64,000 nt of DNA from Halochromatium sp. (lineage in GTDB: Bacteria; Pseudomonadota; Gammaproteobacteria; Chromatiales; Chromatiaceae): the NCBI GenBank assembly GCA_010912705.1, contig POWB01000001.1, positions 409,759 through 473,758 of the forward strand, written 5' to 3'. The translations under genes and the position numbers were made by a program. Below are positions 12,739 through 16,121 of this stretch, one piece after another (within the stretch, counting starts at the first letter, position 1; each line of letters begins with the position of its first letter). The notes beneath the pieces were generated by a model. It saw only the letters and a list, made by a program, of their open reading frames with translations. It ran no database searches and was not told the DNA's origin.

Positions 12739-13548
12739 ATGCCTGAGCACTGGCCGCGATCAGACGCTGAGCAGCCGCCAACCGAGCATGAGCACACCAC
12801 CGCAGCGGCGGTCAGGCTGAGGTTGTGGCGTAAACGCCTCGGCCGCGGTCTGTCCATCCTGCTGTTCGGTCTGGCTAGCCTGGTGACGATGCTGCTGCTG
12901 ATCGACCTCGGGATCTCGCTCTCCACCCGCGGTTCGATCACCGACCAGCTGGACCAGGTGCAGCCCACCGAAGTCGCGCTCATCCTGGGCACCTCGCGCG
13001 GTATCAGAGGTCGCCTCAACCCCTTTTACCAGGCGCGCATCGAGGCTGCCGCCGAGCTGTATCACAGCTGCAAGGTGCGCGGTATCCTGGTCAGCGGCGA
13101 CAATGCCACCCGCTACTACAATGAGCCGGTGTCGATGCAGAAGGACCTGATCGCGCTCGGTGTGCCAGCCGACTACATCAGCCTCGATTACGCCGGCTTC
13201 CGAACCCTCGACTCGATGGTGCGGGCGAAAGAGGTCTTCGGGCTCGAGGAAGTGCTGGTGGTCAGCCAGCGTTTCCAGGCGGCACGCGCAATCTTCCTCG
13301 GTCGGCAATTCGGTATCGATGCACAGGGCTATGCCGCAGCTGACCCCGAGCACAGCGGCTACATCAAGGTCCGCATCCGCGAGATCTTGGCCCGCGCTGC
13401 GGCCGTGCTCGATGTCCTCACGGGCCAAGGACCAAGGTTCCTCGGCGACCCTGAGATGATTCGTCTGCGCGACGAGCTAGAACCCGCGTTAGACTTGGTT
13501 CCCGAGCAACCCAAGGTCTTGAAAGCCGCCCGATCGCACGACCCTTAA
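12739..13548 (+). CDS. sanA: SanA/YdcF-like DUF218 envelope protein
   Basis: A 269-aa inner-membrane protein with one N-terminal helix (LLFGLASLVTMLLLIDLGI, about 42-60) and a periplasmic DUF218 domain. VALILGTSRG, NPFYQARIEAAAELY, LVSGDNATRYYNEPVSM and LDYAGFRTLDSMVRAKEVFG match SanA closely; in enterobacteria SanA affects envelope barrier function and vancomycin exclusion at high temperature. It carries a charged 30-residue N-terminal extension and a C-terminal extension (RDELEPALDLV) compared with E. coli. It lies 26 bp after the lipoprotein gene and may be cotranscribed. No strong SD precedes the ATG. Confidence 0.9.
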   Translation: MPEHWPRSDAEQPPTEHEHTTAAAVRLRLWRKRLGRGLSILLFGLASLVTMLLLIDLGISLSTRGSITDQLDQVQPTEVALILGTSRGIRGRLNPFYQARIEAAAELYHSCKVRGILVSGDNATRYYNEPVSMQKDLIALGVPADYISLDYAGFRTLDSMVRAKEVFGLEEVLVVSQRFQAARAIFLGRQFGIDAQGYAAADPEHSGYIKVRIREILARAAAVLDVLTGQGPRFLGDPEMIRLRDELEPALDLVPEQPKVLKAARSHDP

Positions 13549-13598
13549 GGCGATTTCTGTCAAAGCTCAACCTTTGCCCCCACACAGAGGCATCCACT

Positions 13599-14319
13599 AT
13601 GCCGTGCTTCGACTCACTTCAGCCACTGATCAGCATTCAGCCAAGGCACCTTCTACGCGGTACCGGTCGCCTCGCCTTAATCTGTGCGCTCTGCCTCCCA
13701 TTCATCATTGGCTTGAGTGGATGTCGGGAGAAAAAACAGTTCTTGATTTTTTCTTCATTTTTTATCAAAATTTTCTATCGTAGATAGGTTATCTACAAGC
13801 GCGAAGGTTTCGCGTTCCATGGTCAGAGTCGAAGTCGAATCGCAAGGTTGTTCTCTGTTCAGGATGAACGTCGAGGCAATTTTTATGGCGCAAGCTGGGT
13901 TTCGACGGCTGAAACTGCCCATGTTGCCGGTGTTGACCGGCCATTCGGTTGAGACTGCTCAACCAGGACTCCAGTTGCTCACCCGCAAGGGTGTTATCAA
14001 CGGAGAGCGAAATGCCTAAAAGCTGCATAAGCAATTTTGTTTAGGTTTTTAGGAACAGGTGAAAGGCTTTCCCTCAGGCGCGATCACGATCAGGGTGAAG
14101 CCAGGCGACACCGGCAACTGTGCCATCTCGCCCTGCCGAGTGCTGTTCGAGATGCCGGCCGGCACCGCGGATTATCAGGTGCTCGGCAACCAGGTTAATT
14201 TCGGACGCTACCCTGCTGGCAAGACGGTTAACCTTGGCAACTTCTACGAGCCGATCGCTATCGAAGTCGTCGGCGCCAAGGTGCCCAAGACCTATGTCTA
14301 TATCCCAGTAGATTGGTAA
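13599..14319 (+). pseudogene. Small lipoprotein gene split by a 314-bp insertion
   Basis: The 5' part (13599-13739) encodes 47 residues ending in a signal peptide with lipobox (LPFIIGLSGCREKKQ). The 3' part (14059-14319) encodes KGFPSGAITIRVKPGD...YVYIPVDW. The two parts are separated by foreign AT-rich DNA bounded by the 5-bp direct repeat AACAG (13735-13739 and 14054-14058). Joining across one copy of the repeat gives CAG GTG AAA GGC and an uninterrupted 133-aa lipoprotein. As it stands translation runs into stop TAG after 15 foreign residues. The family is not recognised; the C-terminal half looks like a beta-rich secreted domain with two cysteines. Confidence 0.85.
13740..14053. mobile_element. 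314-bp hairpin-rich insertion with 5-bp target duplication
   Basis: Flanked by AACAG on both sides. It is clearly richer in A/T runs than the surroundings at its ends. It contains successive hairpins: TTGAT/ATCAA at the left end, GTAGATA-GGT-TATCTAC (13780-13796), CGCGAA-GGT-TTCGCG (13800-13814), and CCTAAAA/TTTTAGG closing at the right edge (14015-14053). Two short ORFs (66 aa plus, 81 aa minus) have no recognisable domain. No terminal inverted repeat joins the two ends. It may be an IS-derived non-autonomous element; family unknown. Confidence 0.75.
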
Positions 14320-14383
14320 GGAGAGACTGCCAGCAGGAGCTCCACGCAAGGCGGCAGACCCGGGGCACCGCGACCGCTCCGTC

Positions 14384-14563
14384 TCAGCTTGGCCCAAACA
14401 GCAGCCAGATGATCAAGCCAAACAGGGGCAACAGCAAGATCAAGACGACCCAAAGCACCTTACCCAAGGTGCCCGCATTGCTCTGTACGATCTTGATGAA
14501 GGCGTACACAACGACGATCAGATGTAACAGGCCGAGTAGGCCTCCAACTTCGATTCCCACCAC
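14384..14563 (-). CDS. Small PLDc_N-type membrane protein
   Basis: Too short for the ORF track. GTG at 14563, with GGAG eight bases upstream, opens a 59-aa frame: MVGIEVGGLLGLLHLIVVVY, a short polar loop (KIVQSNAGTLGKVLW), then VVLILLLPLFGLIIWLLFGPS. Two transmembrane helices and the closing PLFGLIIWLLFGP motif are those of the phospholipase-D nuclease N-terminal (PLDc_N) family of stand-alone membrane peptides, function unknown. It is antisense to the track ORF at 14313-14585 and divergent from sthA. Confidence 0.8.
   Translation of the reverse strand: MVGIEVGGLLGLLHLIVVVYAFIKIVQSNAGTLGKVLWVVLILLLPLFGLIIWLLFGPS

Positions 14564-14723: not shown

Positions 14724-16121
<1,398 letters not shown>

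Follow-up and report, generated by a model that had tools for sequence, protein, structure and literature searches.

A protein-less IS607-family mini-element in a lipoprotein gene of Halochromatium sp. and its putative TnpB guide RNA

Here, we propose that the DNA interrupting a lipoprotein gene of Halochromatium sp. is a non-autonomous element of the IS607 family that encodes no protein and is, with fair probability, a stand-alone gene for a structured guide RNA. Comparison with related genomes shows a precise insertion of the IS607 type, spread in multiple copies, a conserved RNA, and kinship of its 3' domain with the right ends of tnpB elements. The initial annotation, which had been made from the window (the whole 64,000-nucleotide stretch analysed), recognised neither the kinship to IS607, nor the origin of the right end from tnpB, nor the covariation in the RNA. 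The features under study are collected in Table 1.

Table 1. Coordinates of the interrupted gene, the inserted element and its parts within the window
Feature	Position	Strand	Basis
5' part of interrupted lipoprotein gene	13599..13730	+	Signal peptide, lipobox LSGC, 44 codons to the insertion point; colinear with intact orthologues L017, L018
GGGAG target motif left of the insertion, host-derived; putative TnpB target-adjacent motif (TAM)	13726..13730	+	Found in empty sites too
Inserted element, protein-less IS607-family mini-element, 328 bp	13731..14058	+	Empty sites; full-length copies within this genome and elsewhere
Left end AAAAAACAG (CAAAAAACAG in most copies)	13731..13739	+	Equals left end of autonomous IS607 element L069
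Weak sigma-70-like promoter, TTGATT-17-CAAAAT	13743..13771	+	8 bases upstream of first hairpin; individually not above shuffles
5' RNA domain, model R1, ~167 nt: two GGU-loop hairpins, long arm with near-invariant AGGAUGA loop, GCCGGU/ACCGGC hairpin	13780..13945	+	Covariation
Hairpin GTAGATA-GGT-TATCTAC	13780..13796	+	Folding, covariation model
Hairpin GCGCGAA-GGT-TTCGCGT	13799..13815	+	Folding, covariation model
tnpB 3' coding remnant (TnpB residues 430-454, 84% identical), no start	13943..14017	+	Presumably kept as RNA
3' domain, putative omega-RNA (reRNA) scaffold and IS607 right end, 113 nt	13946..14058	+	Homologous to 3' end of tnpB elements; fold z -4.7
Terminal hairpin CCTAAAA...TTTTTAGG	14015..14053	+	Stem covaries between subfamilies
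3' part of interrupted lipoprotein gene	14059..14319	+	Matched by orthologues
Predicted guide of read-through RNA, host sequence GTGAAAGGCTTTCCCTCAGG	14059..14078	+	Inferred from reRNA architecture (PMC10711439, PMC11061315)

The interrupted gene and the spread of the insert

The gene lies between a SanA-like/DUF218 gene (12739-13548) and a soluble transhydrogenase gene (14724-16121) in a 4.19-Mb assembly of 43 contigs that is about 90% complete (G000). It comes from a purple sulfur bacterium that, to judge from its relatives, falls into one genus-level group with Lamprobacter modestohalophilus and Halochromatium roseum. The initial annotation had described it as a lipoprotein gene interrupted by a transposase-less mobile element that consists of hairpins and leaves an intact reading frame once precisely removed, and this description is borne out: the insert holds no transposase ORF, orthologues are uninterrupted in Lamprobacter modestohalophilus (L017/L060) and Halochromatium roseum (L018/L061), and other genomic copies of the insert exist. 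In both orthologue species the empty site reads CGGGAG followed directly by GTGAAGGGC, with flanks that align without a gap, which places the insertion at 13731-14058 (328 bp) and gives an intact protein of 130 aa that reads SGCREVKGFPSG across the joint. The boundaries may equally be drawn as the same 328 bp shifted by 2 bp, an ambiguity due to AG, the sole sequence common to both joints of the window copy.

These limits correct the earlier ones, which began 9 bases too far to the right. Deleting 13740-14058, as had been suggested, does leave an open 133-aa frame by arithmetic on the sequence, but the empty sites of the relatives give 130 aa; the intact orthologue that had been foreseen is thus found in two species, at 130 rather than 133 aa. 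The AACAG pair (13735-13739 and 14054-14058) is present as reported. However, it is not the target-site duplication that had been implied, as the empty sites place both copies inside the element, and as almost every full-length type-A element retains them although it sits at an unrelated site. A repeat of 5 bases is by itself within chance, and it is the multiple copies together with the empty sites that make the insertion into the lipoprotein gene certain; chance as an explanation of the AACAG pair is ruled out by the multiple copies.

Two side observations concern the host gene. The broken lipoprotein has a paralogue in its own genome (L026, G000:C7:44901-45140) that is 56% identical and has an open frame of 128 aa. 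In addition, the right end of the element places TAGGAACAG (14050-14061) immediately before the GTG of a downstream frame of 86 aa, where it could act as ribosome-binding site for a shortened lipoprotein that lacks the signal peptide.

The further genomic copies that had been anticipated include a second full copy in the same genome (C40:131131-131453, 97% identical), and others in G005, G011 and G093 (90-98%), one of which, 90% identical, full-length and unannotated, is carried by plasmid pAt1 of Allochromatium tepidum; the matches always span AACAG to AACAG, with GGAGCAAAA upstream. The second copy in the own genome breaks a response-regulator gene (reverse strand, MSKAHLLIVDDEPDIL), and the empty site in relatives, GACGATGAGGAG followed by ATGCGCCTTGCTCAT (also given as GATGAGGAG followed by ATGCGCC), indicates that the target keeps GGAG. 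The left flank of type-A copies is GGAG with one exception (AGAAG), and is AGAG in G052; copies with other left ends also mostly have GGAG before them, and AGAG in G073. The mobility of the element is therefore well supported.

One contig of the own genome starts inside another right end (L066, G000:C18:1-108, 97% identical), which probably represents either a third copy or a break of the assembly at the repeat. Elsewhere, a mini-element (L067, G005:C70) and a truncated tnpB element (L068, G002:C7) lie in opposite orientation, about 26 bp apart, at the start of the same gene; this gene begins MMSAEPQPHLSFDDWLAIER and is, we presume, possibly Uma2-like.

A structured RNA of two domains

The 5' domain of the element is a strongly covarying RNA family that is absent from Rfam and, as far as can be judged from Rfam and the papers searched, undescribed. 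It includes the two GGT-loop hairpins that had been recognised in the initial annotation (Table 1). The region 13780-14058 folds with a z-score of -4.1, and 13 copies fold into seven helices with 44 pairs, half of which (22) carry compensatory changes on both sides. In the R1 alignment 96.3% of paired cells can pair, compared with 36-46% when partners are slid, and covariation is 0.45 compared with 0.25 in shuffles. Pairing was also held in six sequences from another family that took no part in model building (88.7% of cells against 31-44% slid, with 14 compensated pairs), in an alignment fitted to the model. Thus, the presence of a conserved RNA in the element is well supported.

Searching with R1 yielded 36 copies in nine of 210 family genomes (12 in G073, 9 in G093) and, in a second family, nine copies in two genomes, for a total of 11 genomes in two bacterial families; the order-level search covered the same genomes as the family-level search. 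Beyond the class, a single weak match (29.5 bits) was found among 399 genomes of the phylum. Phage records gave no match to the element, and 21 viral contigs matching the pattern of the second hairpin proved not to contain the RNA (best score 15 bits).

No counterpart of 13780-13945 was seen in the tnpB elements compared, and none of the 39 RNA loci carries tnpA or tnpB, apart from a remnant of 25-31 residues. Three kinds of left end precede the RNA module: CAAAAAACAG; CTAGACTCTAGT, which belongs to a second TnpA subtype (L062/L077); and ATTTTAACTGC, in G073. Different ends are thus combined with one and the same RNA, which suggests that it is the RNA that is retained. The 5' domain may lend stability to the transcript or stand in for part of the tnpB mRNA. 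Its loop A(A)GGAUGA (AGGATGA at 13861-13867 of the window) is nearly invariant across R1 loci, degraded in a few copies, and may be protein-binding; it resembles what we take to be the binding-site consensus of CsrA/RsmA.

The 3' domain is presumably the scaffold of a TnpB guide RNA. Element positions 212-324 are 85-89% identical to the right ends of several tnpB elements, and type-A 3' domains retain about 25 startless codons of the end of tnpB. The domain forms three hairpins, each with compensations: GTTG/CAAC, the CTCC-GTTG/CAAC-GGAG arm, and the terminal hairpin, whose closing CCTAAAA/TTTTTAGG had been pointed out before and is indeed present. While the window copy's 3' domain has a fold z of -4.7, single tnpB right ends folded alone do not rise above shuffles.

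Nearly all 3' domains compared in G073, G093, G133, G325 and G440 find their best match in a resident tnpB right end, and in G093 mini-element and tnpB right ends agree in 112 of 112 bases. L086 is the exception, and the 3' domains of G000, G005 and G011 match another genome best. G073 (L079-L111) has two types of right end, of which the commoner is without a close tnpB match there among the loci compared (0.6 of the maximum score).

TnpB itself tends to be found where the RNA is. Of 204 family genomes, 20 encode relatives of TnpB (E up to 1e-60), namely eight of the nine RNA carriers and 12 of the ~195 others (Fisher 1.7e-8, ignoring phylogeny), and both RNA carriers of the second family also encode TnpB; no TnpB was found in the low-quality assembly of the carrier G196. 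Published work on IS607 TnpBs reports the TAMs AGGAG and GAGGG, a right-end RNA running into the flank, and the RAGATH-18 RNAs of these TnpBs (PMC11061315), or again a right-end RNA running into the flank with the TAM GGG (PMC10711439). The GGAG before nearly all type-A copies resembles these TAMs. Rfam, including RAGATH-18, has no match in 13500-14400 at E up to 5, and at related loci (E up to 1) it matches just a tRNA; the putative scaffold is thus recognised by its homology to tnpB right ends.

Kinship with IS607 and other mobile elements

The ends of the insert, left and right, match those of a complete IS607 element in G002 (L069), which consists of the left end GGGAGCAAAAAACAGTT, tnpA, tnpB and the right end GTTTTTAGGAACAG. 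Its TnpA, with MerR and Resolvase domains, passes the NCBIfam model transpos_IS607 (NF033518) with 217 bits against a cut-off of 110. A related TnpB, that of L077, passes guided_TnpB with 106.9 against a cut-off of 100 and contains the motifs GVDK, EDL and DQNA. Loci that share merely the right 113 bp with the insert carry tnpB. A kinship with IS200/IS605 (Y1), suspected from the hairpins, is ruled out, the linked transposase being a MerR-HTH serine recombinase.

IS607 inserts at GG without duplication (PMC6188088). Comparison with empty sites likewise reveals no target-site duplication, and a crossover of 2 bp would fit, but the dinucleotide common to both joints is AG, immediately preceded by GG, which we take as a subfamily difference. 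As the insert contains no transposase ORF and none of the 39 RNA loci adjoins tnpA or tnpB, it is a non-autonomous IS607 derivative and not a full member. No TnpA of the matching subtype was found in its own genome, in the about 90% of it that is assembled, where the sole TnpA is 49% identical; a TnpB is encoded there (C33), in an element whose terminal hairpin differs from that of the insert.

L062 (G000:C33) and L077 encode TnpBs closely related to that of L069 (about 85% identical to L077), whereas the TnpA subtypes are merely 48-50% identical and differ in left ends and terminal hairpins. The transposase is thus exchanged modularly around one TnpB and its scaffold. A mini-element in G093 (L086, G093:C1:655837-656002) is a natural hybrid, whose left end is that of the first TnpA subtype and whose right end is that of the second.

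With the IS607 family, whose members include IS607, ISXfa1 and ISFba1, the insert shares ends identical to those of a local autonomous member, the lack of target duplication and of terminal inverted repeats, a G-rich target, and a right end continuous with the putative reRNA. It differs from them in having neither tnpA nor tnpB, in its presumed AG core, and in the extra 167-nt 5' domain of its RNA, which probably has its own promoter. Like TnpB omega-RNAs (reRNAs), the RNA lies at the right end, with a predicted scaffold followed by flank as guide and an AGGAG-type motif in the left flank. In contrast to them, it matches no Rfam model, RAGATH-18 included, and its scaffold, which in this clade overlaps the 3' coding region of tnpB, is detached and fused to a new 5' domain.

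PATEs and similar MITEs are protein-less relatives of IS200/IS605 elements that keep both ends and use a transposase in trans, and are known for the hairpin ends of Y1 transposases. The insert is also non-autonomous with both ends kept, but is of the serine-recombinase IS607 type and has a long covarying RNA. It does not resemble a classical MITE, as no inverted repeat between the ends is visible by eye and the AACAG pair lies inside the element.

Proposed role and alternatives

If the insert is a gene for a guide RNA, how might it work? Comparison shows that the element entered the lipoprotein gene precisely after GGGAG and without target duplication, as IS607 serine recombinases do, with crossover probably over the shared AG. 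Its RNA combines a 5' domain specific to such protein-less elements with a 3' domain that is homologous to tnpB right ends. Transcription may start at the left-end promoter and read through the right end into the flank: weak -35/-10 matches occur in most lineages, with the -10 ending 6-12 bases before the first hairpin, although a stricter scan of the window gave no promoter, and no terminator was found at the right end. The RNA would bind TnpB encoded elsewhere in the genome and guide it by the ~20 nt that open the right flank, a function that we infer from the likeness to reRNAs in sequence and layout. On excision of the element by TnpA in trans, TnpB with its RNA would cleave the empty site formed by rejoining (TAM GGGAG followed by GTGAAAGG...), and the element would be regained through repair from a sister copy. 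In this way it would parasitise both the IS607 transposase and the nuclease.

The insert could instead be an IS607 element reduced by ordinary deletion to a MITE-like form, of which TnpA needs the ends alone, its internal RNA-like structure being a relic or DNA hairpins. Non-autonomous IS are common, and the insert does lack a protein gene and have the ends of an autonomous element. We nevertheless find this rather unlikely, since the 5' domain comes from no tnpA/tnpB element seen, covaries, and stands under three left ends in two bacterial families; DNA hairpins in particular fit poorly with IS607 mobility, which uses double-stranded ends and not hairpins (PMC6188088, PMC10711439). Nor is 280 nt of paired structure, maintained across swapped ends, expected from plain deletion. 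Distinctly unlikely, in our estimate, is a regulatory small RNA of a different kind, which might bind CsrA through the AGGAUGA loop or damp tnpA/tnpB expression, with the tnpB-like 3' part acting as a right end for transposition alone. It would account for the confinement of the 5' domain to protein-less elements and for the almost invariant A(A)GGAUGA loop with its presumed likeness to the CsrA consensus. However, that loop is degraded in some copies, and a right end for TnpA should be short, yet the inner ~65 nt (CGGTTG...GAGCGAA) are conserved, compensatory changes included, and vary with the resident tnpB.

The splicing suggested in the initial annotation finds no counterpart in the sequence, as Rfam reveals neither a group I or group II intron nor any further family in the element, even at permissive thresholds. 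IStrons, which unite an IS with a self-splicing group I intron (PMC4227781), are also structured RNAs on IS-type elements inside genes, and precise removal of the insert does restore the frame; but the frame is restored because the DNA insertion is precise, and an intron-like element that lets the lipoprotein still be made is scarcely credible. The insert, then, is real, IS607-derived and protein-less, and most likely serves as a mobile, stand-alone TnpB guide-RNA gene.

In the literature searched, which was partially covered, no paper describing a guide-RNA-only IS607 element was found. Stand-alone omega-RNAs have been mentioned for IscB. TnpB and its guide RNA are thought to aid the persistence of transposons, and the guide normally overlaps or follows tnpB. 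A more far-reaching reading, on which we are evenly divided, is that these loci form a class of RNA-only selfish elements: mobile TnpB guide-RNA genes that bring a promoter of their own and a novel RNA domain, with TnpA moving them and TnpB keeping them in place, both in trans, in at least two gammaproteobacterial families, each jump giving the host TnpB a new target. If true, a guide-only transposable unit would separate mover, cutter and guide in nature, comparable to a CRISPR array apart from its nuclease. It would also provide natural multi-target sets for one TnpB, with nine copies in one complete genome, and would make it testable whether a guide RNA alone benefits a transposon.
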